64,000 bases of DNA from IMG/VR virus record IMGVR_UViG_3300025131_008477, positions 1 through 64,000 of that record; one strand, written 5' to 3'. The notes under the pieces were generated by a model that saw only the letters and a list, made by a program, of their open reading frames with translations, was not told the DNA's origin and searched no databases. Positions 16,080-35,844 of the stretch are shown one piece after another. Positions within the stretch are counted from its first letter, which is position 1, and each line of letters starts with the position of its first letter. Origin of the DNA: a virus. The translations under genes were made by a program, and so were the position numbers.

Positions 16080-16109
16080 AATATACTACTATTTTACTAT
16101 ATAAATCAA
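16080..16109 (-). promoter_or_regulatory. Sigma70-like promoter ahead of the primase
   Basis: On the coding strand TTGATT (16109-16104) and TATATT (16085-16080) are separated by 18 bases and preceded by AAAAAGC. The same arrangement recurs at 51.6, 54.4 and 57.7 kb. The predicted start point falls at about 16073, the primase ATG itself. Confidence 0.6.
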
Positions 16110-16618
16110 GCTTTTTCTTTAAAAAGTGACATAACCAATCCGTCATATGCATCAATATTCCGTTTATCCCAATTTCCCCTTGTTGTGTGTTTACACCATT
16201 TCTTTGTATCATATAACTCTTCTATTTGTCTTTTAACGAAATCTTTCGCTTTAATACCCTTAACTCTCGCTTTACCGAAAACTTGTTTACGAGCCGTCAT
16301 AGGATTCACATTTTTTACTTCAATATCAAATGTATCCTCTATCACATAACAAAGAACAGCGTTAAACTTTGCAAGTTTAACAATGACCTGTTGAGATGTC
16401 CTTCCACCAGCAAATCCTGATAGATTATCCTCAACATATACTTTTTTAACATCATCAATATACGAACTTTCATTGATACGAGTCAAGACATAAAATGCTT
16501 TTTCTTTGTGAGTTGTGAATTTTTTGATATCGATGAAACCCATATCAAGTATTTTTTTGTTTTCTGTAAATGCATATCCTACACAAGATGTGGATATGTC
16601 TAACCCCAATATAACCAT
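16106..16618 (-). CDS. RuvC-like Holliday junction resolvase
   Basis: The 170-residue protein shows the RNase H fold of RuvC enzymes. D7 sits in ILGLDISTSCVGYA, an acidic pair E63/D64 follows in VYVEDN, and D156/D159 occur in NIDAYDGL near the end; these would form the metal-binding catalytic set. RuvC-family resolvases cut four-way DNA junctions; in T4 the unrelated gp49 does this before packaging. The gene lies just upstream of the primase and close to the Mre11-Rad50 fusion, which fits a recombination role. Alternative: another RNase H-fold nuclease. Confidence 0.8.
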   Translation of the reverse strand: MVILGLDISTSCVGYAFTENKKILDMGFIDIKKFTTHKEKAFYVLTRINESSYIDDVKKVYVEDNLSGFAGGRTSQQVIVKLAKFNAVLCYVIEDTFDIEVKNVNPMTARKQVFGKARVKGIKAKDFVKRQIEELYDTKKWCKHTTRGNWDKRNIDAYDGLVMSLFKEKA

Positions 16619-16625
16619 ATTTTTC

Positions 16626-19600
16626 CTAAAATTCTAATTTAACTTTAATAACTGCTTCTCTTGAAAAGTTTTTCTGTAAGGATTTACTTAATGCAGCTAT
16701 AGCTACACAAGTTCCATAATTATCATATAAATGAACTTGTGTTATAAATGACTGAGGATCACCATCCATTGTTGATGAACCTGATATATAATCAACACCG
16801 TCATATCCAGTATAAGAACCACTAGTAATAATAAATCCACCCTTTCTACCAACATCATTATTAAACATATTTCTACCTGATCCACTTAAAATAGTAAAAT
16901 TATTTGTATGATTAAAATGAGTATTAGGTATTCTACATAAATAAATTACATTTGTTACTTCTTTTTCACCAAACAAAGTTAAAGAATTTCCACTAACATT
17001 TCTCATAGTATTTACAAAACGTAATGCATTTTTATCATCTTGATTAGAAGATGTTAATGGATAAAGTTGATCATGTCCACTATTTTTATATAAGAATGAG
17101 CCACTAAAAGTTCCTCCACCCCAATTTGAATTTAGACTCATACTTGTTTGATTTTTAATTGAAGAAATAATAAATTTCTGAGAATACTTCTCGTTCCCAC
17201 TTCCACTATCAATTCTAATTGCATCCCCAACTACAAGAGATCCTGTGAAATTAGTCCCGCTTCCAGAAATTTGTTTTGATCCATTAGATGCGGTTATAGT
17301 ACCAGTAAGTATAGAATATCCACTTTTATTAAATTCAGCAATTTTTGGATTTTTTACTGATCTAAATTCATTAGAAAGTTTTTCACCAAATACCATCAAA
17401 CCAACATCAGGATAAATATAACCATATCTCCCACCCACAACATTTCCAACCATAGAACCGGCAGATCCAGAAACTATACTATATACATGACCAGCATCTG
17501 TTACATTAGGTGGTGTTGTAACTACCTTGCTGTCATCAGTTAAATGAAGAGTTTTACCACTACCATTTGAATCTGATCCACTTAATGTCAAAGTCCAATT
17601 TCCAGATTGTAATTGATCTTTAAATCTTGATTTTTTAAAGTTTAAAATATATATCCAATTATCGACATTACCATCATTACCATCAGATCTAACATCTGAA
17701 CCGGATGATATTAAAAATCCTTTATCTATTCTATCAGGATCTAATAAAGCTGATGCATATTGTCTATATACAGCTTCAGAAGCTCCTTTTATATCATTAT
17801 TATTTGTAATAGAACCAGACCCAAATCTATGACCCCATGTGATATAAAACTGTGTATTAGATTTTGGTGAATTTGGATCACCGTCTGTAACTCCAAAATA
17901 ATATTTCTTATTCGTATCTGCCATAGATGCTGTATATATAGAACTACCACTTATACCACTATTTTTATCAACACTGTCACCCGTAAAATAATTAATTGTT
18001 TTCATACCACTTTTTATAATTTTATCATGTCCTAATTTTGCAGTTCTTATTGTTAATGGTATGCAATTACCACCAGTACCACATGAAGTACATTCAAAAC
18101 CCAATGTCGCCAAATAATCATTATCTACCAACCCACATGGGTAAGGATCTGTGTAACATATAGAAGCATCTCCACCATCACTACATTTAAATTGACCAGA
18201 AGGAATTTCTGTAGTAATAAAATCTTGACCATATGACATTGATACTGCCGTTTCATCAGCCCAAAACTCTGTCCACACAGGTGCACCAGATGGTATATTC
18301 ATGTCTCCATCAATCATACTTTCTATATATTGAGCAATATCATATCTACCCAGGTCTTCCCATAAACCCTGATCAGTTGAATCTAACTGACCATCACCAT
18401 TTAGGTCATAATCTTCAAAGTATTCAATACCAAACATGGAATAGTCAAATCCTCCTTGTGGAAAATATCCATACCAAGTATATTCCGCGGTAAGATCATT
18501 ACCACCTTCCACACTCTTCAACCATTGTACTCTTTGTATAAATTCAAGTGGTCTGGAATCTCCTTGACATGCAGTAGTGGTCTGACCGGATTGACCATAT
18601 GAAGATATACAATTTGATTGTATCAATGGACTGTCTGCCAGTCCACTTTTCCACCGTATCCACAACCCATCATATTCAGATATTATATTATCACCCATCG
18701 CCGACTCTTGACTTTCAGTTGGAAATTCAGCTGAACAATTATTTATTATATCAGCAGCACAATATTGCCAACAAGCGTCTGTGTTTGGGAAAGTATCATC
18801 ACACTCTCCTGTAAGACTTGTATCTTCTGGATGCATCCATTGAATATCATTACTATCTGCTGAATGCACATGTGTAACATCTAACTCTCCTCCATGTTGA
18901 TAAGATAAACCATATATATTAGCATGTAATGCCTGTACCATCTGAACGGTTGTCATATCACCACCATAACTACCTTCTGGTGGACCATATGTATTTCCCC
19001 ATTTAAAATGAAGGTAATCATCATAACTACAACAACCTGGAAAACTACCACCACATTGTGTTGTAGCTTCTGGCCAATAATTTCTAGCTTGAGGATCAGT
19101 ACACCCAATGATAGAACAATCAGTTAAATCTTGAATTCCTCCGGTGTCACCATCATCCCAACCGAACTCCGTTCCAAAAGATGCATCAGGATTATTTGGG
19201 TCTGATACTGTAATACTTAAATTAGCGGTCAGCCAACCGACAGGTGCGGCCATTAAACATGCTGGATATGAAGCTTCACCTGATACTGAATCTGAAACTG
19301 TTGGACAAATTTTATTCCAGTATAATTGAAAATTACCATCAAACTGTAAATTACCATTATAAAGTAAAGCACAAATTCCATCTCCACCAGCACCGAGTTC
19401 TCCATTTGTCTCTATAGTCGATAATTCATTATTATTTAAATATAAAGTTGTTAAACTTGTTAAATCTTGTATTTGTACTGGTATTATACCAGAAGCATCA
19501 CCAGCGCCAAGTGAATTATCAGATAAATCTAATGTAGTTAAGGAAGTTGCGTTTCCTATCGATATTGGTATTTCTGTTAAACCAATATTACCTGCAATAA

Positions 19601-22600
19601 AAGATGTTAAATTTCCATTTATGTCCCATACACTTTCACCACTATTTAAATTAATTTGCATTGATTTTGCATCTGGTGTACTGGAAACTGCAGTTAAATC
19701 TCCAATAACACTCACATCTGTTTTAAAGAAACAATGACCAGTCTCAGTATAACCATCTACATCTATATCTTCACCGAAAAGAAATATTGAATCTTCAATA
19801 ACTACATCAGGGTCATATGAAGCAGTTGCACCATCTGTATGTTTATTCCAATAAAAATCATGAGTTGTCATATCACTACAATATTCACAAGTTGTTACTG
19901 GATATTGATCATATATATTGATCTCAGCTGGATCTAAATATAAAGTACCAGCGCCACTACCTACTTCAAAGTTAAGTGCTACTGGATCTGGACAACCAGT
20001 TAATGTCCACCCACCACAATCAGGATGTGTATCTAAACCATTTGATGCTACATCCCAACCAACCGGAATATCCTCATATTCACCAACAGTACCATCTGGA
20101 ATATGATTTGTTTCATTAATGTCATCACAATAATATTCACTGGATATTATATCACCTGGATAGTCGTCATCAGGACCTTGAACATCACAACATTGTGAAT
20201 TTCCAAGTCCATAGCCATTGGGGTCATAATAATTACTACCATCAGCCTGACAATATTCTACTGGATATACACAACATTCTGTTGTAGCTGATCCTGGATT
20301 AGCTGTATCAATAAATGGATTGGTAGGATCATAACCCGCATCATATCCATTTTGACAGGTTTCTTTCAGAATTTCATAGTTGCAAGCAGTTATATCTGGA
20401 CATCCCACGTCATATATTGGATTTTCTTCACATGGTGCTCCATTACAATCATAACTAGCACAAGATACAGGTTGACCTACATTATTAGCACCACAAACAA
20501 AATGTTGGGTTGTATCATAAGGAGGTCCATCACTTCCTTGTGGATTATCATCATCAAGGTTGGCCGCATAACAATATGTATAATAAATATCTGGATAATG
20601 CAGAACCATGCCACAAGTTTCACCGGTGGGAGAACAATCACCAGTGGAATAACATAAATTACCGGTATTTTCTTGTGTTGCATCAACCACACAAGTCTCT
20701 CTACCTGATTTCCATGCTCCACCAGAGCCAGTATCACATACACCACAATCATCCATGTTGAAATCCGCGGTTGGTACAAAACTATATATATCTAATCCTT
20801 CACCAATAATAATGTCAGCGCTTCCACCAACATCGCAATCACCACAAGTATCTAGTGAATATTCACAACGACCTTGACGATAGTCACAATGAGTAGAATC
20901 ACAAGTACAATTTACACCGGCATCTGTTGTAGTACCACCTCCATCACAACAAGACGTATATTCACAAGAACCATCATCATAATAACCCTGTGCCGCTGTC
21001 CCATCTTGAGTACATGCTTTTGGATCAGTACAACCACCTACCTCAGTACCACTTGAAGCTGATACTAAAATATAATTAGCTGGACAAGTAGGACCACAAT
21101 AAATTTCATCAGAACTACCCTCATTACAGTATCCAGTAACTCCCTCTAGACAACATGTTACTCTTTCATCTGAATTATCAGTACCACCTTCTAATCCAGT
21201 ACAACATGTTGTACCACCATCATCTGTATAATTACCAAAATTACAAACACTGTTAGGATCTTCATTCGCATTAGAATTATAATTACAAGCAGTTGCATCC
21301 ATACAACCTGTATCTGTACTGGTATCATATCCACTCGGACAAGTAGGATTACAACTGGTTACCTGAGTTACACCAGATCCGACAATCTGATAACAGTCTA
21401 TAGTTATTTCAGATTGACAACTAGTACCACTACAATCACCTGGACTTCCACAAGGTGTAGCTGAAAAATCATATCCATCATAACTACTATTAGCCGAACA
21501 GGATAAATCAGTATAATAGAAACAACTGTCGTCATCCGTATCTGCGTTAACATTATAATTACAAGCAGAAAAATATGTACAACCTTCATCTGAACTGTCA
21601 TCCCATCCATCATGAAGGTCACAACTTTCATCACAACCAGTCCAAGAATAGACTTGATCATCTAGTTCATTATAACAAGTAACTGTGTTTTGAGCATAAC
21701 AACCATCTTGATCAGTTCCACCATCCGATGAGGGGCAATTAGTTGGACTGCCACAAGGTGTAACTCCACCACAAGAACCCTGACCAAAACATCCACCTTG
21801 ACCATCAGCTCCATCACAAGTTGAACTTTGTCCTCCACAATTTGTACACGTAGCATATATACAAGCAGCATTATCACAATTATTTTCATTACAGGCACTT
21901 GAGTCACCACAGGAATATGAGAAACAAGGATTATTACATCCACCACCACATTCTGCACAACCACTATAATAAGTACCTACACAATCATCACTGTCATCAG
22001 TACTGTCTATAACCCAACCGGTATTACAAGTATTACCTTCAGTACATTGTGTTTCTGAGTTACCTGGGTCTCCGAAACCATCAACATCTGCATCTCTATA
22101 ACAAAGAGTATTAGTTTTAGTTCCCCATTCAGTCCCTGCACAATCTGAACAAATCCGATTAGTAGTTCCAGAACAAGCGGTAGTTTCGGTTTGATTGGAA
22201 GCACACGTTGCGCAACTACTACAAACTCGATTAGTAGTTCCAGAACAAGCTGTAGTTTCGTATGTGCTACCATCGGTACACGTTGCGCAACTACTACAAA
22301 CTCGATTAGTAGTTCCAGAACAAGCGGTAGTTTCGTATGTGCTACCATCGGTACACGTTGTGCAACTACTACATCCTCGGTCCGAAGTTGTTGTGGGTGC
22401 CGTGGATTCATATTGGGTGTTTGTGCATACTGTTAAATCTGTACATCCTCGGTCCGAAGTTGTTGTGGGTGCCGTGGATTCATATTGGGTGTTTGTGCAT
22501 ACTGTATGTGAATAACACACTCCCTCAGAAGAATACTGACCATCAGATGGACCACTACCATCACATACACCACAATCATCTAATACATTACCATCACAGT

Positions 22601-23699
22601 CACATGCCCAACTTGGTATACCCATACCACCACAGACACCACATTCATCATTTACTAAAACACCACCACATTCACCAGCACAATCATCCGAAGGACACCC
22701 AGGGCCACAATCGTTACACCCACAGGGTGCAGGTTCACCACAACCACAACCTACATCTGCAGATGCACCTTGGCCATCATTACAACCACATCCTTCTTCG
22801 GGATACCAACAATTGGGTTGAACCCCACATTCCGGGCAGAAGCCGCCACCATCTTCACCATCACCACCACCACCACCAAAACTGCAATTTCCGGTGCAAT
22901 ATTCGGTGTACTGAGATGAAAAATTGGCACATGGTACGTAACCACCAGTTGCACCACAGGAACCGTTTCCTTGATTATATTGACCACAATAGCTGTAAAA
23001 TATATTACACATAGTTCCGTTACCATTGAATGCAGTGCAGGGAACTCCCATTACTCCAGAACAACCACCACCACCAGTATTATGAGTTAAAATACCATCG
23101 GCAAAGAATGTATGATTATCTTTTACATGAATATCATATGTTCTAATACCAGATTCTAATATAGGTTCTATATCTGTTACTATAACTTCATTTAGTTCAC
23201 CACTATCATCATATTCATATACAACATCACCAACTTCTAATTGTTCAACTTTTTTTCCGTAATTAGATGCCCAAACCCATTGATGTAATGTATTGCATCT
23301 TTCAGCATCTACAGCTACAAATCCTTTATCTCTTGACCAAAATGGATTAGCTATTGTATTATGTGTTACAGTACCATTATCATATGTAATTTTAACTGTA
23401 ATATCACCACCTTCTATATCAGTATGTGTCTGAGTAAGTAACCATTCTACTTCTTTTGGTTCAAATTGTCCTGTGTGTACATTATAGGAAAGAACTTCAT
23501 CACCTTCAACAATATCTTCAATGTTTTTATCTGGACCATCTTTCATTATAACTTTTGTTCCGGCTATAAAACATTCTGCCATAAGTTCAGCTACAGATTC
23601 ATCAGAATACTCAAAATCTTCAGAAACAGTATCAAACTGATGTGTTATATCATTCCACTCCAATATAACTTCGTTATATATTTTTCTCATTTTTCCCAT
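16626..23699 (-). CDS. Giant Cys-rich tail protein with internal Hint domain (2357 residues)
   Basis: Residues 1-42 (MRKIYNEVILEWNDITHQF) match the N-termini of the paralogs at 24693-27521, and about residues 1905-2357 match their C-termini (FSREAVIKVKLEF against SEATIKVKLTY). Between them are a 165-residue Hint domain (43-207), then about 1700 residues rich in Cys. That insert contains TNFR-like repeats (about 398-525), many CTDPxACNYN-type units, a leucine-rich segment (LTTLDLSDNSLG, near 19500) and a dockerin/EF-hand-like DYDLNGDGQLDSTD (near 18400). It is probably a virion tail protein whose insert is displayed and disulphide- or metal-stabilised. The N-extein would be only 42 residues if the Hint domain splices. 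Confidence 0.85.
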   Translation of the reverse strand: MGKMRKIYNEVILEWNDITHQFDTVSEDFEYSDESVAELMAECFIAGTKVIMKDGPDKNIEDIVEGDEVLSYNVHTGQFEPKEVEWLLTQTHTDIEGGDITVKITYDNGTVTHNTIANPFWSRDKGFVAVDAERCNTLHQWVWASNYGKKVEQLEVGDVVYEYDDSGELNEVIVTDIEPILESGIRTYDIHVKDNHTFFADGILTHNTGGGGCSGVMGVPCTAFNGNGTMCNIFYSYCGQYNQGNGSCGATGGYVPCANFSSQYTEYCTGNCSFGGGGGDGEDGGGFCPECGVQPNCWYPEEGCGCNDGQGASADVGCGCGEPAPCGCNDCGPGCPSDDCAGECGGVLVNDECGVCGGMGIPSWACDCDGNVLDDCGVCDGSGPSDGQYSSEGVCYSHTVCTNTQYESTAPTTTSDRGCTDLTVCTNTQYESTAPTTTSDRGCSSCTTCTDGSTYETTACSGTTNRVCSSCATCTDGSTYETTACSGTTNRVCSSCATCASNQTETTACSGTTNRICSDCAGTEWGTKTNTLCYRDADVDGFGDPGNSETQCTEGNTCNTGWVIDSTDDSDDCVGTYYSGCAECGGGCNNPCFSYSCGDSSACNENNCDNAACIYATCTNCGGQSSTCDGADGQGGCFGQGSCGGVTPCGSPTNCPSSDGGTDQDGCYAQNTVTCYNELDDQVYSWTGCDESCDLHDGWDDSSDEGCTYFSACNYNVNADTDDDSCFYYTDLSCSANSSYDGYDFSATPCGSPGDCSGTSCQSEITIDCYQIVGSGVTQVTSCNPTCPSGYDTSTDTGCMDATACNYNSNANEDPNSVCNFGNYTDDGGTTCCTGLEGGTDNSDERVTCCLEGVTGYCNEGSSDEIYCGPTCPANYILVSASSGTEVGGCTDPKACTQDGTAAQGYYDDGSCEYTSCCDGGGTTTDAGVNCTCDSTHCDYRQGRCEYSLDTCGDCDVGGSADIIIGEGLDIYSFVPTADFNMDDCGVCDTGSGGAWKSGRETCVVDATQENTGNLCYSTGDCSPTGETCGMVLHYPDIYYTYCYAANLDDDNPQGSDGPPYDTTQHFVCGANNVGQPVSCASYDCNGAPCEENPIYDVGCPDITACNYEILKETCQNGYDAGYDPTNPFIDTANPGSATTECCVYPVEYCQADGSNYYDPNGYGLGNSQCCDVQGPDDDYPGDIISSEYYCDDINETNHIPDGTVGEYEDIPVGWDVASNGLDTHPDCGGWTLTGCPDPVALNFEVGSGAGTLYLDPAEINIYDQYPVTTCEYCSDMTTHDFYWNKHTDGATASYDPDVVIEDSIFLFGEDIDVDGYTETGHCFFKTDVSVIGDLTAVSSTPDAKSMQINLNSGESVWDINGNLTSFIAGNIGLTEIPISIGNATSLTTLDLSDNSLGAGDASGIIPVQIQDLTSLTTLYLNNNELSTIETNGELGAGGDGICALLYNGNLQFDGNFQLYWNKICPTVSDSVSGEASYPACLMAAPVGWLTANLSITVSDPNNPDASFGTEFGWDDGDTGGIQDLTDCSIIGCTDPQARNYWPEATTQCGGSFPGCCSYDDYLHFKWGNTYGPPEGSYGGDMTTVQMVQALHANIYGLSYQHGGELDVTHVHSADSNDIQWMHPEDTSLTGECDDTFPNTDACWQYCAADIINNCSAEFPTESQESAMGDNIISEYDGLWIRWKSGLADSPLIQSNCISSYGQSGQTTTACQGDSRPLEFIQRVQWLKSVEGGNDLTAEYTWYGYFPQGGFDYSMFGIEYFEDYDLNGDGQLDSTDQGLWEDLGRYDIAQYIESMIDGDMNIPSGAPVWTEFWADETAVSMSYGQDFITTEIPSGQFKCSDGGDASICYTDPYPCGLVDNDYLATLGFECTSCGTGGNCIPLTIRTAKLGHDKIIKSGMKTINYFTGDSVDKNSGISGSSIYTASMADTNKKYYFGVTDGDPNSPKSNTQFYITWGHRFGSGSITNNNDIKGASEAVYRQYASALLDPDRIDKGFLISSGSDVRSDGNDGNVDNWIYILNFKKSRFKDQLQSGNWTLTLSGSDSNGSGKTLHLTDDSKVVTTPPNVTDAGHVYSIVSGSAGSMVGNVVGGRYGYIYPDVGLMVFGEKLSNEFRSVKNPKIAEFNKSGYSILTGTITASNGSKQISGSGTNFTGSLVVGDAIRIDSGSGNEKYSQKFIISSIKNQTSMSLNSNWGGGTFSGSFLYKNSGHDQLYPLTSSNQDDKNALRFVNTMRNVSGNSLTLFGEKEVTNVIYLCRIPNTHFNHTNNFTILSGSGRNMFNNDVGRKGGFIITSGSYTGYDGVDYISGSSTMDGDPQSFITQVHLYDNYGTCVAIAALSKSLQKNFSREAVIKVKLEF
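18330..19640 (-). other. Leucine-rich and dockerin-like segments in the giant tail protein
   Basis: Within the 2357-residue protein, the region near 19430-19640 encodes LRR units (TSLTTLDLSDNSLG, LTSLTTLYLNNNELS). The region near 18375-18425 encodes a D-x-N-x-D-G-x-L-D calcium-loop motif resembling dockerin type I or an EF-hand. Such modules in secreted bacterial proteins mediate protein contacts; their role in the virion is inferred. Confidence 0.6.
22150..22370 (-). repeat. 75-bp tandem repeats (TNFR-like Cys motif)
   Basis: Three near-identical copies with a 75-base period start at 22203, 22278 and 22353 (core ACACGTTG), preceded by a diverged partial copy. They encode CSSCATCTDGSTYETTACSG-type units, each holding four to five cysteines. 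The period is a whole number of codons (25), so copy-number change would keep the frame. Confidence 0.85.
22371..22505 (-). repeat. Two identical 63-bp units with 72-bp period
   Basis: Positions 22371-22433 and 22443-22505 are identical. They encode VCTNTQYESTAPTTTSDRGC twice. Perfect DNA identity points to a recent duplication inside the Cys-rich insert. Confidence 0.9.
23079..23573 (-). other. Hint / mini-intein-like domain
   Basis: The 165-residue domain starts at Cys43 (CFIAGTKVIMKDG, splicing block A). It continues through a block-B-like GTVTHNTIANPFWSRDKGF and ends with block F/G DNHTFFADGILTHN, followed by Thr208. The Cys at position 1, the terminal His-Asn and the Thr at +1 are the residues used in protein splicing. 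There is no homing-endonuclease insert, so it is mini-intein or BIL sized. Whether it splices or only cleaves cannot be told from sequence. Splicing would join AE to TGGGG. Confidence 0.9.
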
Positions 23700-23702
23700 A
23701 TT

Positions 23703-24677
23703 TTAATGATCCACCTTAAATGTTATAATTAAATCTATATCATCTCTCATTTGTATTGACCTAGGTAAATTAGCTGTAATTAATGGTTCTTCTTGTTGAT
23801 TTCTATGTAAATGTATTTGATTAAAATAAGGAGACCACCCACTTCCTGTTAATTCGTTTCTCATATTAATATAATCAGCAAAATTTGAACCTGATGGTAA
23901 AGACCCAGACAATGGTAATCTGGTACTCGCATTCATTGCTCTATTAAAATCACCAGCATTTATTTTAATTGAATATTGTGATGTAAATATAGGTGTTGTT
24001 GAATTAAAATTTAATTTCCAAAATTTATAATTTTTTTCTAATGTTGTTGCAGAAGATTCTTTTCCACCAATATCAGTATAATCAACAGACCCAGACCAAG
24101 AGCCTGTTTCTGTTAATACAGCTACACCCAAATCATAAAATACATTACCGACATAATTATATTTTGTTGATAATGCTCCAGCACTTTGAGAATGTGATGC
24201 GTTGGTAGAATATAAATTACCATTATTATCATCTTTAATTATAATTTCTTTTGTTGTATTTGTTGAACTTCCAGTTCTTGCAGTTAATTGAAAAGAGCCT
24301 GGTTTTATTCTTTCCCCAAACAATTGTTGTGGAATATAAAATATAGAAGCTGTAGAATAAAACTTGTTGGTATAAAAAGGTTTTAAATCATTATGTTGAT
24401 TAAAATTGTGATATATATTATTAAATTTTACAGCATCTGCTGGTTGATCTTCTAAAACCTTTGAAGAACCACTTAAATAAAACATTCCATGAATAAGAGC
24501 CCAATGACTACCGGAAGTAGATAATGTCACATTTTTATCTGGATCAGTGTAATCATCTTTTTTTGATAATACGTGATGAACTCCATCAGACGCGCTATTT
24601 ACTGTTTGATTTTTATGAAAAGATTGCTCTACAAAATTTGTTTCTGATGAATCGACTCTTCCGAATTTAATTGACAT
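23703..24677 (-). CDS. Tail protein, divergent member of the paralog family
   Basis: The 324-residue protein has no enzyme motif. Its last 60 residues (WSPYFNQIHLHRNQQEEPLI to the end, DLIITFKVDH) align in pattern with the C-termini of the three IYNEVI-type paralogs beside it. The segment SIKINAGDFNRAMNAS resembles their CRIKSGDYNFSSNPT. It is beta-rich throughout. It starts 15 bases after the 502-residue paralog ends. The inferred role is a tail or baseplate-periphery structural protein. Confidence 0.65.
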   Translation of the reverse strand: MSIKFGRVDSSETNFVEQSFHKNQTVNSASDGVHHVLSKKDDYTDPDKNVTLSTSGSHWALIHGMFYLSGSSKVLEDQPADAVKFNNIYHNFNQHNDLKPFYTNKFYSTASIFYIPQQLFGERIKPGSFQLTARTGSSTNTTKEIIIKDDNNGNLYSTNASHSQSAGALSTKYNYVGNVFYDLGVAVLTETGSWSGSVDYTDIGGKESSATTLEKNYKFWKLNFNSTTPIFTSQYSIKINAGDFNRAMNASTRLPLSGSLPSGSNFADYINMRNELTGSGWSPYFNQIHLHRNQQEEPLITANLPRSIQMRDDIDLIITFKVDH

Positions 24678-24692
24678 GACAACATAACACAG

Positions 24693-26201
24693 TTAATAAG
24701 TTAATTTAACTTTGATTGTAGCTTCAGATACAAAGTTTTTCTTTAACGGTTTACTCATTTCAGCAACTGCTAAAAGCTGCCCTGCAGAATTATATAAACC
24801 AATACCAGTTATAAATGTACTTGGATTACCCATCATGGTAGTATGACTAAGTTTATTTAAAGCTCCACTTACAAAAGTTGGATTGGATGAAAAATTATAA
24901 TCACCAGATTTAATTCTACAAAAATAACTTTCTTGTGTCGCGTCTTCTTCACTTCTCATTTGTAATACATTATTACTACCACCGAGTCTTAAACAATTTA
25001 CAAATCTAAGTGCATTTTTTGGATTTCCTTGAGCATTTAAATTTGGTGCAAAACCACTACTACTTCCTATAGTAGATGTATTAGTTGAAAAACTAGCAGT
25101 TATATCAGTTGTATCTATCAGTGAAAGTAATGACCCCTCTTCATACAGTGCATTACCAGCCCACTGAAAACTACCGGTAAACGCACTGGTTGAAAGTCCA
25201 TCACCGGTGATTGTCATTCTTATAACTGTATTTCCAGTAGTACTCGCACTTGTGAATTGTACTATATCACCAACACTTAAACCTGAAAATGCAGCTGCTG
25301 ATGATGAATAATAATATGAACCATTGGACGCCGTTACATTATTAATTAAGTTACTACCAAAATTAGGACCACCTGGAATGGATGCAGATAATTCTACACC
25401 ACTAAATACCATAACACCACGCTCTGGATAAAACCAACCATAAGTTTTATGAAGATAAGCATTAGCTCTATTAGAACCAGTTGGAGAACCTAATGATCCA
25501 CTTACAATATTATATCTTTGACCTCCAGGGGTTGCTATAGATGGTACATAAGCGCTATCATCAGTTAAAGAAAGAGAAACACCATCACCCTGAGTATTAG
25601 ATCCAGATAATACCATAGTCCAAGATTTTTTGTTTAATCTATCTTTAAATCTATCTCTTTTACCAATCCACGTGTAAATATATTCATCTCTTACTTTGGA
25701 AGAACCATAAACACCACCAGTACCAGCTGCTGATATCTTAAATCCACCCGAAACTTCAGTCGGTACCATAAGTAAATTTGCAAATTGTTTATAAATTGCT
25801 TGAGTTTCGCCTTTAAGATTAGTAGGATCGTTCTCAGTATCACCATATTGGTTAGATCCAGAACCTAATACATGACCAAAAGCAACTGAAAATTGTACTT
25901 CCGAATTAGAAGCCGATGAATGTAATTGAGTTACATTAAAATAATACTTTTCATTTGAATTTGATAAAGATCCTGTATGTATATTAGTACCAGAAAGTGT
26001 TCCATCGCCGTCTGTAAAATAACCAGCTGTAGTTTTAATTGTATCTGATACTGTATCTTGATCTAATATGGTCGTTGAATGTGGTGGTGCTCCTTGTGCC
26101 AATGATATATGACCATTATAATCAAAGCTATCTTCATATATGGTTTCCCACTGCCCATTGGTGTCATTAAATCTAGTTATGACTTTATTATATATTTTCA
26201 T
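24693..26201 (-). CDS. Tail structural protein, IYNEVI paralog 1
   Basis: The 502-residue protein shares its whole length with the next gene upstream (26253-27521): N-terminus KIYNKVITRFNDTNGQWETI, middle FSVAFGHVLGSGSNQYGDTE and LKGETQAIYKQFANLL, C-terminus SEATIKVKLTY. It has an extra block of about 80 residues near 285-365 that the shorter paralog lacks. DNA identity over the last 200 bases of both genes is very high, which indicates recent duplication or gene conversion. No catalytic motifs are seen. It is probably a repeated structural subunit of the tail or fibre base. Confidence 0.75.
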   Translation of the reverse strand: MKIYNKVITRFNDTNGQWETIYEDSFDYNGHISLAQGAPPHSTTILDQDTVSDTIKTTAGYFTDGDGTLSGTNIHTGSLSNSNEKYYFNVTQLHSSASNSEVQFSVAFGHVLGSGSNQYGDTENDPTNLKGETQAIYKQFANLLMVPTEVSGGFKISAAGTGGVYGSSKVRDEYIYTWIGKRDRFKDRLNKKSWTMVLSGSNTQGDGVSLSLTDDSAYVPSIATPGGQRYNIVSGSLGSPTGSNRANAYLHKTYGWFYPERGVMVFSGVELSASIPGGPNFGSNLINNVTASNGSYYYSSSAAAFSGLSVGDIVQFTSASTTGNTVIRMTITGDGLSTSAFTGSFQWAGNALYEEGSLLSLIDTTDITASFSTNTSTIGSSSGFAPNLNAQGNPKNALRFVNCLRLGGSNNVLQMRSEEDATQESYFCRIKSGDYNFSSNPTFVSGALNKLSHTTMMGNPSTFITGIGLYNSAGQLLAVAEMSKPLKKNFVSEATIKVKLTY

Positions 26202-26252: not shown

Positions 26253-27521
26253 TTAATAAGTTAATTTAACTTTGATTGTAGCCTCAGATGCAAAATTCTT
26301 TTTTAATGGTGAACTTAAACGAGCTGTAGCTAAAAGCTGTCCTGTAGAATTATATAAACCAATACCAGTTATAAATGTACTTGGATTACCCATCATATTA
26401 GTATGTCTAAGTTTATTTAAAGCTCCACTTACAAAAGTTGGATTTGCACTAAAATTATAATCTTGAGCTTTAACTCTACAGAAATAATTTTCTTGAGTTT
26501 GATCTTCTTCACTTCGTAATCTTAAAGTATTAGAACTACCCATATTTCTCATACAATTTGCCAATCTAAGTGCATTTTTTGGATTGCCTTGAGCATTTAG
26601 ATTTGGTGCAAAACCGCTACTACTATATCTTTTATTCGCGATAGTTGCACTAAAACTAGCAGTAATTGCGTCTGTTTGAAGTGCTCCACCATCGACTCTA
26701 GGTCCAGGTATACTTGATGAAAGTTCAGCACCACTAAATATCATAACACCCATTTCAGGATAGAACCAACCAAAAGTTTTTGTTGTAAATGCATTTGTTG
26801 GAACTCCAAGTGATCCTTCAACTATATTATATCTTGGACCTCCGGGAGTTGCAATGGCTGCTACATTAGAGCTATCATCTGTTAAATCTAATGTTACATT
26901 TCCATCATTAACAGTATTTCTACCAGATAATGACATTGTCCAAACTTTCTTATTTGGTCTATCTTTAAATCTTGATCTTTTACCAACCCATATGTAAATA
27001 AATTCATCTCTTACACCTACACCAAGCGCACCACTACCACCAGCATGAGCAGATATCTTAAATCCACCAGATGCTTCTGTTTCTTCCATAAGAAGAGAAG
27101 TAAATTGTTTATAAATTGCTTGAGTTTCGCCTTTAAGTGTTTCTGAATTTGTAGTTGAATCACCATAAGTATTAGATCCAGAACCTCTAATATCACCATA
27201 TGCTACTGAAAATTGAGTTTCCACACTCGATGACAGTGGATGTTTTTGTGTAATATTAAAATAATACTTTTCATTTGAATTTGATAAAGATCCTGTGTGA
27301 ATATCAGTACCAGAAAGCGTGCCATCACCGCCTGTAAAATAACCAGCTGTGATTTTTAACGTATCTGATACTGTATCTTGAGCTGATATTGCGGTACCGC
27401 CAACGGGTACACCCTGTGCAAAAGCTACCGGCCCATTATAATCATAACTGTCTTCATATATAGTTTCCCAACGACCTGTAATATCATTAAATGTTGTTAT
27501 GACTTCATTATATATTTTCAT
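26253..27521 (-). CDS. Tail structural protein, IYNEVI paralog 2
   Basis: The 422-residue protein is the compact form of the paralog family: a conserved N-terminal strand region (KIYNEVITTFNDITGRWETI), a middle with LKGETQAIYKQF, and a C-terminus with NPSTFITGIGLYNSTGQLLA. The long Cys-rich gene at 16626 looks like this protein with large insertions. It begins 15 bases after the 225-residue tail protein gene ends and is followed by a 51-base AT-rich spacer. Function beyond virion structure is unknown. Confidence 0.75.
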   Translation of the reverse strand: MKIYNEVITTFNDITGRWETIYEDSYDYNGPVAFAQGVPVGGTAISAQDTVSDTLKITAGYFTGGDGTLSGTDIHTGSLSNSNEKYYFNITQKHPLSSSVETQFSVAYGDIRGSGSNTYGDSTTNSETLKGETQAIYKQFTSLLMEETEASGGFKISAHAGGSGALGVGVRDEFIYIWVGKRSRFKDRPNKKVWTMSLSGRNTVNDGNVTLDLTDDSSNVAAIATPGGPRYNIVEGSLGVPTNAFTTKTFGWFYPEMGVMIFSGAELSSSIPGPRVDGGALQTDAITASFSATIANKRYSSSGFAPNLNAQGNPKNALRLANCMRNMGSSNTLRLRSEEDQTQENYFCRVKAQDYNFSANPTFVSGALNKLRHTNMMGNPSTFITGIGLYNSTGQLLATARLSSPLKKNFASEATIKVKLTY

Positions 27522-28325: not shown

Positions 28326-31300
28326 TTAAGTACCATATTGTATTGTATATCCAGAACCACCAGTTGTACTGATATAATAAAAAGCATCGGTTGATAAATC
28401 AATAAATCCACTATCTGTCTGAATAGTTTCTCCACCTTGATTTTGAGTTCCAGTATAAATTAAACTATCAATACTATCCTTGGATGTTCCAACTATAAAT
28501 TGATGATTTGCTGGATAAACAAAAGTTTCATCTAAAAATTTACCACCCCTAAATGAAATAGACCCTGTTGGTCTAAATTCAATAGTTGTTCCAAGTGGTC
28601 TATTTCCCAATCCTATTTCACTAGTAACAAATGTCTTATTACTGAAATCTTTACTGGCAGTATAAATACCAGATGTTACCGTACCTGTGAAATCTGTTTC
28701 AAATGCAGATTTTGAACTTGAATAAGATCCTGAAACGGATTCTACATCACCGATCATATTAAATATATATCTACTTTCATAATGATATGTATTATAATCA
28801 TTATTTTTACCCAAAGATCCAGTATCAGTATGAATAAAATGAACATCATTTTCTGTTGTACCCCACCGATCAGATAAATTATCATAAGATTTATTAAGGT
28901 TATTACTTAAAGTTTCATCACCTCTAAAATTAAGAGTACCATCTCTAGTATCAAAAAATTGAATAGAAAGATTTGGATTACTAGATGTAGCTGATGATAT
29001 TTCTATAAATATTTTATTTGAAATTCTGTGTTCAATATCAAATAAAATAGAACCAGTATCTATTTGATTTCCAACACTAATATCAAGATTACTATTATAT
29101 GGATATGATATTCTTTCAGTTAAAGTTGGAATGCTTCCAGTATGTGATGCTATTGATATGTGAGTATCTCTATTTGGAACGGATTTCACTGTTAAAGTTG
29201 GTATACTGCCTGTGTGAGATGCAATTGATATATGAGCGTTTCTATTTGGAATAAATTCCTCAATCAAAGTTGGAGTACTTCCGGTGTGTGATGATACTGC
29301 AATATGTATATCTTTAGATGTATACAATGGTTCAAGATTACTAAAATCCCAACTAATACTACCAGTAGAAGATGCTATTGAAAAATTTATATCTCTATTT
29401 GGAACAGATTTCACTGTTAAAGTTGGTATACTGCCTGTGTGAGATGCAATTGATATATGAGCATCTTTTGTTTTATGTAATTCATATTGATCAGTGAAAT
29501 CATAATATTGACTTCCGGTATGAGAATATATTTCTATATTAGCATTTTTTGTTTTATATATACTTGGTTCTATTTTTTTACCAAGAAAAGTATTATTTTC
29601 CCAATCACTAATAGGTGTGTTATCATTTGGATCTGTAGTATGATATTTTATATCACCCGGACCAACTCCTATAAGTGTATGTTCAATCTTATTATTTTTA
29701 GTAAGTTTAGGTCTCTCTAAATATGTTGGTTTTATTTCAATACCAATTTTTGAAAAAGCAGCTCTAGCTGGTACCAATCTTTTTAATGATTTAATTAAAT
29801 CTTTATTAAAAATGACAGATTGAGCCCTAATATATTTATTTATATCCAATGATATATCATAATAATCAAAGAAATCTTTTGCAAAAGTTTCTAAATCTTC
29901 ATGTACAGCTTTATATAAATCTCGTGGGTCTGCAAACTTATCATTAAAATCAAAATTTCCCAGCTGATTTAAGATAAAATCATTTATAACTTCTTGTGGT
30001 GAACGGACTAATTCAACAATACTTGATGCTTTTCTTTTATTAATTAGTGGATCATAAACACTTATAAAACTTGGTCGTGTTGGATTTAAATTATCAATAA
30101 AACGTCTTTCATTATCAATTATAATATTATTATCGCTTAACTCTAATGATCCTCCTGTTCTAACATTAAATTGAATTCTATCAAAGTCATTTATTATATC
30201 ATATAATGGTGTATGACCAAGTGCACTAGATAATATATTTATAGAATAATCTTTTAAATTACTTGTATTAGAATCTTTAATTTTTGGACTAGATGAACCG
30301 GAAGGCCAATTTTCATTTAATCTAAAATGATAAATAAGATTTGTTTGTGAGTCTGTTACACTATTACCAACTACACTTTTCTTATCATAAATGTGTTGTT
30401 TGAACTTTGATGCACTTAATGCAGTTTTCCAAGTTCTAAATTCTGCAATAGAACCTGTATATGTTTCACCAATAATTAAATTACCACTATCATCAGGTCT
30501 ACTGCCAGTTCCTATCCAGTTAATAGCTGACTGTGAATAAACACTTCCACCAAAAGACATTGAAACTATTTGTAAAGTTTTTATCTTATCCCCAACCTGT
30601 TCTCCAACTGCAAGTTGATAAGAATGACTTATTAATAATTCTGGTTGGCTATCACTATTATTAGAGCCAGATGGACCATCAGTTCTTTGTAATAATACAT
30701 TCCAAAAATTTTGATTTTTAAAATTATGATAATCAGTAGACATTGAAACTCTATTACCATCAACTCCAATTGATTCTGACCCCTGTAGTGTATTATTTAG
30801 TCTAAATTGTAATCTTGATTTTATATTATGGGGTGTACTTCCGGATGGTTGTAATATAACATCCCACAGTGACCCAGATGAAAGACTACCACTACTATGT
30901 AATATAGTTTGTGTGTTAGTTCCTTTTACTGGTTTAAATATAAATTCAACTGCATCTGCATCTACGCCATCTCTTCTCCATTCCGCTCCGATTTTTCTAC
31001 TACCGGTATCAATAATATAAGAAACCATTTTATCTGTTTTGGTTGTAAATGATTGATTCCCAGTTGTACCACCAAGTCCATCTAAATTATTTGAAACATC
31101 ATCTGATAATGTAGAGGTGTCGGCTGATTCCATAGAAGCACCATGTTCTCTTAACTTTAATATATCAGCTGGAAATCCATATGAATTTAATAACGCTCTA
31201 ATACTATTCTTAGTTCCTTTTGTTTTATGCATATAATTGATATTATTAATAATATTTCTCCAAATATTATTTTTAATAACATTAGCGCTATTTACATCAG

Positions 31301-33257
31301 ATATAGAAGATCCATAATATTTACTAAGATTTCCATCTTCCTTTTTACCAAATGGAATCATAAATTGCCAATTATATTGATTAGCTAATACTGGAAGTAA
31401 ATTATCTGGAACTGAATTTATTTTATCATATTCTTTTTTAAAAAATAAATTATAATTGTCAGTATAATTCTTAATTATATCAAAATGTTCTCCCATCAAA
31501 TTAACAAATTTTCTAAAAGTAACATTATCCATTTTAGTATCATTTTGTAAAAATTCAGGTAAGCTATTTATCAAACTATGTGGATTATCTCTATCATAAG
31601 ATGATGCAGAAGCATATTGATCGCCATACCAACTTTTAAAATCTGATGAACCTGTCGCTTTTATTTCTGCAAATGGATTAAAATTAGACGGATTATATTT
31701 CGTTATTTTTATATCTGTTAAATAAGATGAAGTAACATTAGTACTATAATCAGTATTTATATAAATTCTAAATAATTCACCAGATGGTATAACAGAACCT
31801 GTAATTGGTACTCCACTTGATGTAACTGTTGTTGCTAAATTAGAATATCTGCTACCAAATGTAACAGCATGAGAACCGGTTTTATCGGACATATTAAATA
31901 TATCTATTTCACTTGAACCTTTAGTAAAATCAGTTATACTTCCAGGTGCACCAATAATTGGATTAGTAGAATGTGGTGTCCAATAAGATGAAGATGCATG
32001 ATAAATATATCTTTGCCATGAACCAGATTTAATATTTGGTGTTAAAACAGAACTTGAATATAAAGTATCAAATGGTAATTTTGGTATATTTTCTTCTTGA
32101 TAATTTTCCCAAACTATATTACCGTTGGCACTCTCATCACCTTTCATTAAAAATGATAGATAAAATGAACCACTCCAATTATAAAATGGTTTATCTTCTA
32201 CTTTATATTTATCTTTAAATAATTCAATTTGACCATTGCCTGTAATTGAACCAGAAGCCAAATGAACTAAACTAAAACCACTATTATTTAAAAGTTTTTT
32301 TTCTGTTTTTAATGGAGTATTATCAATATAATTTTTTCCAATATTTATATTATATTTAAATCCTAAAGTATCACCCTGATAATAAAGACTATTTTCATAA
32401 GAAGTAAAAGAATTTTTTTCATTTTGTATTTTTGTAAATAAAGTTTCTCTCAAATTATTAGCGTTAGTACTACTCGTTAATTGTAATGATTGAGAAACTT
32501 GAACTAAATAACTTTCAATTGTAGATACTTTTTTCTTAAAATTTTCAATTTTAGAAACAGCAGAACCAAAATGAATATGATTTTCAAAATTACTATAATC
32601 TACTTTTAAATTAATATCACTTCCAGATCTAGAAAATAATTCTCCTATAATTGTTTTATCGGCATGAGCAAATGAAGAAGTTATATCATTATAACTTTGA
32701 TATTCCAATTTTTGAATATCAGAATTGCCAACTTCATCTTTCATCCCCTCATCATAATCTAAACCACGTAATGTTGGTTTAGGTATAGATTTTGGAATAT
32801 AATAAACTTCTTGTTCTTGTGTAGTTAGTACTTGTCTTTCAATTGAAATAGAATCTAATTTTACAACTGATGATGGTAATGGATCAATAAGTTTAATTAC
32901 TAATGAAGGAATAATATCAGAAGTTAAATTTATAAGATCAATATCATCTACTGTTATATTAACAATAGAAATATACTGATTATCTTTTGTTGTTAAAACG
33001 GTATTTTCAAATCCAGAGGGTGTGCCTATAATATCTTTTAAATATGCAACTACTAATCTAATTATAGCCGGATTAGGACCTATCGAACTAAAACTAGATA
33101 AACTTGATGGAATATACTTATTATCTATAGTTCCTTCATCAAATATACTATTAATAGTTCCTAATATATAATGAGCATTGTTATCAATATCTACAGAATT
33201 TAATGTTACTCTAAGTTCTTTTCTTGATGGTGATATTTCTTTTATTAAAAATTTCAT
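28326..33257 (-). CDS. Large baseplate/adhesion protein (1643 residues)
   Basis: The N-terminus (KFLIKEISPSRKELRVTLN) starts a long beta-rich region. Near residues 575-710 there is a helical part with NINYMHKTKGTKNSIRALL, which resembles the RGT-type segment of phage tail protein I (P2 gpI-like) at the baseplate edge. About residues 730-960 form a LamG/concanavalin-like domain. About 1225-1430 contain some eight units of roughly 25 residues of the HISIASHTGSIPTLT type. It is likely a baseplate component that also carries carbohydrate- or surface-binding modules. A direct T4 equivalent is not certain. Confidence 0.7.
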   Translation of the reverse strand: MKFLIKEISPSRKELRVTLNSVDIDNNAHYILGTINSIFDEGTIDNKYIPSSLSSFSSIGPNPAIIRLVVAYLKDIIGTPSGFENTVLTTKDNQYISIVNITVDDIDLINLTSDIIPSLVIKLIDPLPSSVVKLDSISIERQVLTTQEQEVYYIPKSIPKPTLRGLDYDEGMKDEVGNSDIQKLEYQSYNDITSSFAHADKTIIGELFSRSGSDINLKVDYSNFENHIHFGSAVSKIENFKKKVSTIESYLVQVSQSLQLTSSTNANNLRETLFTKIQNEKNSFTSYENSLYYQGDTLGFKYNINIGKNYIDNTPLKTEKKLLNNSGFSLVHLASGSITGNGQIELFKDKYKVEDKPFYNWSGSFYLSFLMKGDESANGNIVWENYQEENIPKLPFDTLYSSSVLTPNIKSGSWQRYIYHASSSYWTPHSTNPIIGAPGSITDFTKGSSEIDIFNMSDKTGSHAVTFGSRYSNLATTVTSSGVPITGSVIPSGELFRIYINTDYSTNVTSSYLTDIKITKYNPSNFNPFAEIKATGSSDFKSWYGDQYASASSYDRDNPHSLINSLPEFLQNDTKMDNVTFRKFVNLMGEHFDIIKNYTDNYNLFFKKEYDKINSVPDNLLPVLANQYNWQFMIPFGKKEDGNLSKYYGSSISDVNSANVIKNNIWRNIINNINYMHKTKGTKNSIRALLNSYGFPADILKLREHGASMESADTSTLSDDVSNNLDGLGGTTGNQSFTTKTDKMVSYIIDTGSRKIGAEWRRDGVDADAVEFIFKPVKGTNTQTILHSSGSLSSGSLWDVILQPSGSTPHNIKSRLQFRLNNTLQGSESIGVDGNRVSMSTDYHNFKNQNFWNVLLQRTDGPSGSNNSDSQPELLISHSYQLAVGEQVGDKIKTLQIVSMSFGGSVYSQSAINWIGTGSRPDDSGNLIIGETYTGSIAEFRTWKTALSASKFKQHIYDKKSVVGNSVTDSQTNLIYHFRLNENWPSGSSSPKIKDSNTSNLKDYSINILSSALGHTPLYDIINDFDRIQFNVRTGGSLELSDNNIIIDNERRFIDNLNPTRPSFISVYDPLINKRKASSIVELVRSPQEVINDFILNQLGNFDFNDKFADPRDLYKAVHEDLETFAKDFFDYYDISLDINKYIRAQSVIFNKDLIKSLKRLVPARAAFSKIGIEIKPTYLERPKLTKNNKIEHTLIGVGPGDIKYHTTDPNDNTPISDWENNTFLGKKIEPSIYKTKNANIEIYSHTGSQYYDFTDQYELHKTKDAHISIASHTGSIPTLTVKSVPNRDINFSIASSTGSISWDFSNLEPLYTSKDIHIAVSSHTGSTPTLIEEFIPNRNAHISIASHTGSIPTLTVKSVPNRDTHISIASHTGSIPTLTERISYPYNSNLDISVGNQIDTGSILFDIEHRISNKIFIEISSATSSNPNLSIQFFDTRDGTLNFRGDETLSNNLNKSYDNLSDRWGTTENDVHFIHTDTGSLGKNNDYNTYHYESRYIFNMIGDVESVSGSYSSSKSAFETDFTGTVTSGIYTASKDFSNKTFVTSEIGLGNRPLGTTIEFRPTGSISFRGGKFLDETFVYPANHQFIVGTSKDSIDSLIYTGTQNQGGETIQTDSGFIDLSTDAFYYISTTGGSGYTIQYGT
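29182..29462 (-). repeat. Identical 56-bp copies inside a repeat array
   Basis: Positions 29182-29237 and 29407-29462 are identical over 56 bases and lie 225 bases apart. Both encode the AHISIASHTGSIPTLTVK unit of the 1643-residue protein. Less similar units fill the region between about 28960 and 29560. Confidence 0.85.
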
Positions 33258-34356: not shown

Positions 34357-35844
34357 TTATCTTCTTCTCCTTGTTGCTTTTCTACCTTTTGGTGCTTGTA
34401 TTATTCTTCTACCTTTGCTATATCCACCACCTGACATTTTTTGTGTTTTTCTTCCATGTCTCATTCTTCTTGGTATTGGTCTTGTTCTTCCACCTTTTGA
34501 AAATCTATCAAATTCCCCCTCGTCCCTAAAAACAGGTGGTAATTCAGATGATTCTTCCTCTGCCAGAGGACCCGTTGATTCTCCCCGTGGATATCGTATT
34601 TCATCCTTAAATGGTACATTATCGTCTCCCATAGAATCTCGATATCTAGGTGGTTTATCGGCACCATTATCAACAACAGTATCTCTAATAATATCTTTAG
34701 CAGGTGGAACAATAGTCTCTGTAATATATTCAGTAATAACTTCTTCTGGTTCTTCTGGTGTTACCTGAATTTGTGGTATTATATCTACATCTCCAGTAAT
34801 AACTTCTGGACCATCTTCTGTTTCCACCCCAGCAGTTATAAGTTTTTTAAATTCTTCGATTTCTATTTTTAGAAGCTCTATCTCATTATCTTTAGTAATA
34901 ATATCAGCATCTAGATTATCAATTTCATCCATAAAGCTTATTACTTGATTAACAGACCATTCAGGAATTTCACCATCATCCATAGCTACACGAGCTTCTT
35001 TAAGTAAATAAGTCATTGTTCTATATCCAAACAATCCACTCTCTGTTCTAGCATCGGCTGAACTAACATTAGCTAGTGAACCGGCTGGTATCTGATCCTT
35101 TATTCTATCAAATTCTTCAAAAAACTTTTCAATTCTATATTCCATGGGTATTACCGAACCACCATATTCATTAAAAAAATCATCAGTTCTGTGTCTATAA
35201 AGGGGAATGCGTTTTTTAGCTTTATTATATTCTTCAAGAAATTGTGTAAAAGTAATTGGATTTAATTCTGAAATTTCCCCGTCAACATATTCTAATAATT
35301 TCGACCTACTTATATTAGGAGGTGATTTTGAAAATCCCATAAACTGAGAAACATTATCTTTAAGGTTTACATCATCAATATTAAAGGTACCTAATATTTT
35401 ATTAATATTAAGATCTCTATCTGGTAAATGTAATATAAAATCAGGAGGAGGTAATGCACCTACTTGATCTTCACCACCATCACTTACTGATAATGTAGTT
35501 TCAATAGTTAAAGTTAGTTGTTCAGGTGGAGCAAAATCTAACCAATTAAGAATGGTATCATCCATCGCTCTATCATCTGCATTAGCTTCTACATCACTTT
35601 CATATACAACCATTACATCCGAGCTAGATTTACCAGTTACTAGTAAACCATCTTTGTAGGTTTTTTGTAATGACTGAATACCACCCCCACCATCAATTTG
35701 TGAAAGTTTTTCAATCAATAAAGCTGATATTTTATCATAAACTGCTTCTTTATATTCCTGAATATTTTCAGGTTTCCATCTTTCAAAATTTTCTGGATTT
35801 TGATTTGGATGTTCATAAGCATTATTGCTATTTATATCAGACAT
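34357..35844 (-). CDS. Structural-region protein with Arg/Lys-rich tail
   Basis: The 495-residue protein is mostly acidic and helical. It has a coiled-coil-like segment (NEIELLKIEIEEFKKLI, about 315-335) and a Pro/Glu-rich linker. It ends in about 50 residues dominated by Arg, Lys and Gly (GRTRPIPRRMRHGRKTQK and ATRRRR). Such a tail could bind DNA, RNA or the acidic fibres next to it. It is encoded between a DNRLRE-like protein and the CBM-like protein with one-base spacing, so it belongs to the tail operon. I recognise no family. Confidence 0.6.
   Translation of the reverse strand: MSDINSNNAYEHPNQNPENFERWKPENIQEYKEAVYDKISALLIEKLSQIDGGGGIQSLQKTYKDGLLVTGKSSSDVMVVYESDVEANADDRAMDDTILNWLDFAPPEQLTLTIETTLSVSDGGEDQVGALPPPDFILHLPDRDLNINKILGTFNIDDVNLKDNVSQFMGFSKSPPNISRSKLLEYVDGEISELNPITFTQFLEEYNKAKKRIPLYRHRTDDFFNEYGGSVIPMEYRIEKFFEEFDRIKDQIPAGSLANVSSADARTESGLFGYRTMTYLLKEARVAMDDGEIPEWSVNQVISFMDEIDNLDADIITKDNEIELLKIEIEEFKKLITAGVETEDGPEVITGDVDIIPQIQVTPEEPEEVITEYITETIVPPAKDIIRDTVVDNGADKPPRYRDSMGDDNVPFKDEIRYPRGESTGPLAEEESSELPPVFRDEGEFDRFSKGGRTRPIPRRMRHGRKTQKMSGGGYSKGRRIIQAPKGRKATRRRR

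Follow-up and report, generated by a model that had tools for sequence, protein, structure and literature searches.

A Hint domain clade with asparagine at the block B histidine position in tail-type and other virion proteins of T4-like viruses

A Hint domain within a giant tail-type gene

The window analyzed here (a 64 kb stretch out of a 70,123-base virus record) belongs to a T4-like virus, with matches to baseplate wedge and SbcC-type genes. It encodes a giant tail-type protein, with tail PHROG matches near the C-terminus, in which a short N-terminal tag ending in Glu42 is followed by a Hint domain, a long variable region including an LRR stretch (residues 1383-1430, LRR profile matches) and a conserved C-terminal body (Table 1). 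Positions 22000-23078 are very Cys-rich and contain near-perfect short repeats (TCTDGSTYETTACSGTTNRVCSSC) together with GC..ACNYN modules; the protein as a whole, a product of a reducing cytoplasm, holds ~140 Cys.

Table 1. Coordinates of the host gene, its Hint domain and its paralogs in the window
Feature	Position	Strand	Basis
Giant tail-type host protein, 2357 aa	16626..23699	-	ORF list; syntenic orthologs in T4-like contigs
N-terminal 42-aa tag (KIYNEVI..WND..ED)	23574..23699	-	common to p422, p502 and the p422 ortholog in L150
Hint domain Cys43-Asn207, 165 aa	23079..23573	-	profile, structure and relatives
Cys1 = Cys43, block A nucleophile	23571..23573	-	invariant in 9 non-redundant sequences
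Block B Thr-Ile-Ala-Asn	23346..23357	-	pairs with TFDHP of C. thermocellum BIL 2lwy; clade-invariant
Block F, Asp147 and His154 (domain numbering)	23112..23135	-	invariant; intein_Cterm profile match
Block G, penultimate His206 and terminal Asn207	23079..23084	-	invariant
+1 residue Thr208	23076..23078	-	Ser in relatives
Variable region, residues 208-1885: Gly linker, Cys-rich repeats (GC..ACNYN..), LRR	18045..23078	-	absent from paralogs
Conserved C-terminal body, residues 1886-2357	16629..18044	-	matches p422, p502, L140, L150-L157 and Flavobacterium phage immuto
Paralog p422, without Hint	26253..27521	-	sequence comparison
Paralog p502, without Hint	24693..26201	-	sequence comparison

A sequence-only reading had described a 165-residue, endonuclease-free Hint domain running from Cys43 to a terminal His206-Asn207 with Thr208 at +1, and the ORF translation places it exactly so. 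Its identity is likewise borne out by profile matches and by a confident Hint fold in the AlphaFold model. The NCBIfam profile intein_Cterm scored 29.8 bits (cut-off 15.6), and Pfam Intein_splicing was covered over 155 of its 155 positions (E 7e-6), with a score short of its curated threshold (35.8 bits). Using a domain profile built from the window Hint and eight relatives, we retrieved from the PDB the T. thermophila BIL2 (E 4e-13) and the C. thermocellum BIL (E 2e-7). The AlphaFold2 model calculated from the same alignment (pLDDT 89, pTM 0.86) placed BIL2 on top in Foldseek and VIA-align comparisons (Z 21.7, 1.7 A over 141 residues), followed by gp41-1, the RecA and DnaB inteins and Hedgehog. 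The match is beyond chance and the domain belongs to the Hint superfamily, with the block A nucleophile and blocks F and G in place and the horseshoe all-beta Hint fold predicted by the model. A PHROG 'DNA helicase' match of the host protein is read as reflecting an intein contained in that family, and no helicase is assigned.

In block B, the His of the TxxH motif helps to break the N-terminal junction and is normally needed by Hint domains. In the window protein this position is occupied by Asn (TIANP; protein residue 118, domain residue 76), an assignment which follows from the pairing of TIANP with TFDHP of 2lwy and from the presence of TDSHP at this position in L017, a viral relative of 28% identity. 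The TIAN sequence is invariant across all nine non-redundant clade members, as are Cys1, Thr73, Asp147, His154, His164 and Asn165 (domain numbering) and a second His (His113) located five residues ahead in HNTIANP; most other viral Hints retain TxxH. Thus, of the blocks A, B and F that had been proposed as a check on the domain, A and F are found, together with G, and the catalytic His of block B is not.

Paralogs, relatives and mobility

Positions 16629-18044, 24693-26201 and 26253-27521 of the window represent three paralogous tail genes. The domain had been considered an insertion on the grounds that the N-terminus and the C-terminal body match paralogs lacking it. Both matches hold, since p422 and p502 align with host residues 6-~37 and 1886-2357; the block missing from the paralogs, however, comprises residues 43-1885 (1843 aa), that is, the Hint as its first 165 residues plus ~1680 further ones. 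This rules out that a paralog acquired nothing but the Hint. The predicted structure of p422 reached a pLDDT of 35.

The syntenic orthologs L150, L151, L153, L156 and L157 have the C-terminal body alone in common, and their N-terminal parts (~300-1500 residues) are unrelated and devoid of a Hint. The Hint-bearing proteins of L003 and L007 have their syntenic ortholog in L148, which lacks the domain as well. When an empty site was sought in these six orthologs, a comparable N-terminal part was missing together with the Hint, and no clean inteinless allele was found among syntenic orthologs. In related contigs, the short paralog is always present, whereas in the long one everything in the N-terminal region has been exchanged. 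This region is thus the exposed part that is swapped, and the C-terminal body, conserved in paralogs and syntenic orthologs, is likely, by inference, the virion-attachment part. The earlier suggestion that cleavage would release the Cys-rich part from its tail anchor is ruled out by this arrangement, as the conserved, anchor-like body lies C-terminal of that part; cleavage at Asn207 would shed only the 42-aa tag and the Hint, since the Cys-rich part stays joined to the body.

Domains 63-68% identical to the window Hint were found in 14 viral contigs, and a second, alignment-based scan added remote matches only. A search of phage isolates returned no Hint relative, nor did one pattern-based scan of GTDB genomes, so that the relatives come from viral contigs only. 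In the tree, the clade without the block B His (nine non-redundant members) is supported at 100/99, and among the records checked each member carries one Hint copy. Apart from the Hint itself, no match links the window protein to the other host proteins, save for a weak Cys-repeat stretch of L014. The Hint gene of most relatives lies between homologs of window positions 34357-35844 and 28326-33257; in the window it lies between the homologs at 23703-24677 and 16106-16618; and in L002, a T4-like contig (Gp23, sheath, tube), the Hint is part of a 477-aa protein encoded between the head-tail adaptor and tail-sheath genes. Hint loci thus differ among the window, L003-L014 and L002, amounting to at least three different virion-protein loci. 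The L002 protein (L002:2783-4213) consists of the clade Hint, then SGGGGGD, then a true hedgehog-type Hint (PF01079, E 7e-33). The N-exteins of L005, L007, L012 and L013 are His/Asp/Gly-rich and of low complexity (e.g. GHNNDGHHHHNHKH), and are possibly metal-binding.

Among L003, L007 and L013, the synonymous divergence of the Hint (dS 0.18-0.30) is 2-3 times below that of two baseplate-region genes on the same contigs (dS 0.63-0.66 and 0.50-0.52), so that the module was exchanged more recently than its surroundings. Occurrence in non-orthologous genes and a synonymous divergence below that of core genes mark the domain as a mobile module, and the otherwise intact class-1-like residues and the junction conservation described below mark it as catalytically maintained. 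DNA repeats sought at the Hint edges amounted to short, chance-like pairs, none of which flank the domain. The literature consulted places phage inteins in enzymes (terminase, ribonucleotide reductase and dCTP deaminase, for example) and contained no description of this family in virion proteins.

Hint domains had also been thought uncommon in structural phage proteins; outside DNA-metabolism enzymes, however, they are not rare, as our motif scan of viral contigs recovered many C-terminal ones, some of them in tandem. Viral proteins of unknown role in L075, L130 and L131 (start MKGTFFS..DF..RL.E(V/I)NTDT) carry two, apparently three, tandem C-terminal Hints, the last ending in HN-K-stop, and L033, L042, L091 and L139 carry a single C-terminal one. 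Repeat-rich, tail-like proteins (TYQHRSPSTY...) of L017, L032, L097, L102 and L118 end in a Gly linker and a TxxH Hint, behind which only a few residues follow (FFFFKPSPK, for example). Three adjacent genes of one T4-like contig (L220:1-2256, L220:2312-3805 and L221:1-687) each end with a Hint (ILTHN-IK-stop) and adjoin tail genes syntenic to the window. At the locus of most clade Hints, L156:748-4860 encodes a different Hint located 11 residues from the C-terminus.

Splicing, cleavage or loss of activity

A +1 nucleophile is required for splicing and dispensable for plain C-terminal cleavage. In the clade, the -1 residue is Glu or Asp in 10/10 sequences (local acidic background 24%) and the +1 residue is Ser or Thr in 9/9 (local Ser/Thr/Cys background 16%), in flanks that are otherwise unrelated among the relatives. 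The corresponding nominal probabilities (5e-7 at -1 and 6e-8 at +1) overstate the case, because the rows are partly related and the flanking Gly at +2/+3 is also conserved, so that part of the junction conservation may reflect shared ancestry of the module ends. In comparisons among L005, L007 and L013, no part of the host protein is under stronger constraint than the Hint (dN/dS 0.16-0.29, compared with 0.59-0.72 for the adjoining C-extein and 0.5-1.2 for the N-extein); a dN/dS estimate for the tag rested on too short a stretch, too close to saturation, to be informative. Junction conservation and low dN/dS together indicate that the chemistry of the domain is under selection.

The alternatives of splicing or cleavage raised by the sequence-only reading both stand. 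Splicing is the most likely activity, and we place the probability that it is the main one just short of even; cleavage is its main rival. A plain C-terminal cleaver would need neither Cys1 nor an acidic -1 residue nor a +1 nucleophile, which favors splicing. Against it speak related viral Hints that persist with a non-nucleophilic +1 residue (Lys, Phe), so that the superfamily can be retained without splicing, and the loss of the block B His, which inactivates or impairs many inteins (PMC6333167, PMC7765530). Nevertheless, N-S acyl shift without this residue is possible (Friedel et al., PMC6333167), bulky -1 residues rescue acyl shift and splicing of a DnaB intein deprived of its block B His (PMC6333167), and natural inteins lacking it splice through compensation (PMC7765530, PMC7664689).

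A BIL-like cleavage, in which Asn207 cyclizes and frees the C-terminal part unligated, would leave a fibre starting at Thr208 and shed both tag and Hint, with the loss of the block B His as the event that disabled the N-terminal reaction. The intact Asn-His and block F alongside the lost residue of the N-terminal step are in line with this reading, as are the placement of the domain in variable parts of proteins that are not orthologous, which is reported for BILs (PMC7765530) and contrasts with classic inteins, the predominance of cleavage among BIL domains (PMC7664689) and the short, low-complexity and weakly constrained N-exteins of the relatives, which are compatible with being discarded. 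Conserved Cys1, acidic -1 and Ser/Thr at +1 would, however, be needless for such a reaction, and the His-less acyl shift noted above argues that the N-terminal step need not be lost; we regard cleavage as possible, though rather unlikely.

The other two readings are less probable still. An inert relic serving as a structural spacer would explain the clade-wide loss of the block B His and the subthreshold Pfam score; the invariance of all remaining catalytic residues, the strong purifying selection and the conserved junction residues make it improbable. Hedgehog-like N-terminal thioester transfer, passing the tag to water or another nucleophile, would agree with the retained Cys1, Thr73 and Asp147, the constrained -1 position and the hedgehog-type Hint directly behind the clade Hint of L002. 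The window Hint is, however, not followed by a sterol-recognition-like part, His-Asn and Ser/Thr at +1 are conserved, and the lost His is required for acyl shift in most Hints, so that we consider this the most improbable of the readings weighed here.

What the data show directly is the fold, the presence of the nucleophiles, the clade-wide exchange of His for Asn, the conserved junctions, the purifying selection and the mobility; from these we infer a splicing model that extends to the reaction itself, its prevalence over cleavage and the mode of His compensation. The 165-residue, endonuclease-free Hint, which travels between non-orthologous giant tail and virion genes of T4-like viruses, would most likely excise itself after translation and join the N-terminal tag to the remaining fibre. 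Acyl shift at Cys43, transfer to Thr208 and cyclization of Asn207 would yield a protein of 2192 aa in which residues 1-42 are ligated to 208-2357, the lost His being compensated by Asn118 and the conserved acidic -1 residue (Glu42), possibly with the invariant His113. The complete scenario, in which a virus-only Hint family splices in this manner through Asn and an extein Glu at -1, spreads endonuclease-free, entering the Gly-rich linkers encoded in virion fibre genes through recombination, and matures giant adhesins, is tentative and, taken as a whole, rather doubtful.

If splicing takes place, an intein family would be naturally devoid of the catalytic residue that is conserved best, while the extein apparently holds a fixed residue that compensates for it, and the compensation proposed from engineered inteins could be examined directly in nature. 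Self-processing would then be used, or at least tolerated, in giant phage adhesins, and the module would spread among variable proteins instead of conserved enzymes, with no homing endonuclease involved.

Comparison with known Hint systems

The BIL domains of T. thermophila (BUBL1 BIL2, 6y75/6tmm) and C. thermocellum (2lwy) are the closest solved folds (Z 21.7 and 18.2) and the best sequence matches, and share Cys1, block F, the terminal His-Asn and a location in variable regions of non-conserved proteins. A-type BILs are defined by these last two features (PMC7765530), both found here, and typical BILs lack a +1 nucleophile (PMC7664689), whereas the window clade has Ser/Thr at +1 in 9/9, Asn in block B and a viral tail-type host; one pattern-based GTDB scan found no relatives in bacterial genomes. 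Class 1 mini-inteins (gp41-1, the Mtu RecA splicing domain, Npu/Ssp DnaB) are similar in fold (Z 18-19) and have in common with the window Hint Cys1, the block B Thr, the block F Asp/His, His-Asn and Ser/Thr at +1; unlike them, it lacks the block B His of TxxH and does not sit at a conserved enzyme site with homologs of contiguous exteins. Accordingly, it is assigned neither to the class 1 inteins, owing to block B and the insertion site, nor to the A-type BILs, owing to the +1 nucleophile, although it may act in the manner of either.

Hedgehog Hog/Hint domains are also alike in fold (Z 18); the window Hint differs in ending with His-Asn before a +1 nucleophile, and it is followed by a Gly linker and Cys-rich repeats instead of a Hog sterol-recognition region. 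The C-terminal viral Hints of L017, L032, L042, L075, L131 and L139 cluster with it in one broad group of viral Hints in the tree (96/99), and several share the Gly-rich approach; unlike the window Hint, they keep TxxH, carry Lys or Phe at +1 and end their proteins a few residues past His-Asn. The Tko CDC21-1 group parallels the window clade in having naturally lost this catalytic His and in its bulky -1 residue, with Leu at -1 and a compensating Lys (PMC6333167, PMC7765530) in place of the Glu/Asp at -1 and the Asn encountered here. Taken together, these comparisons set the window Hint and its relatives apart as a new clade of internal, mobile Hint domains that lack the block B His and retain Ser/Thr at +1.
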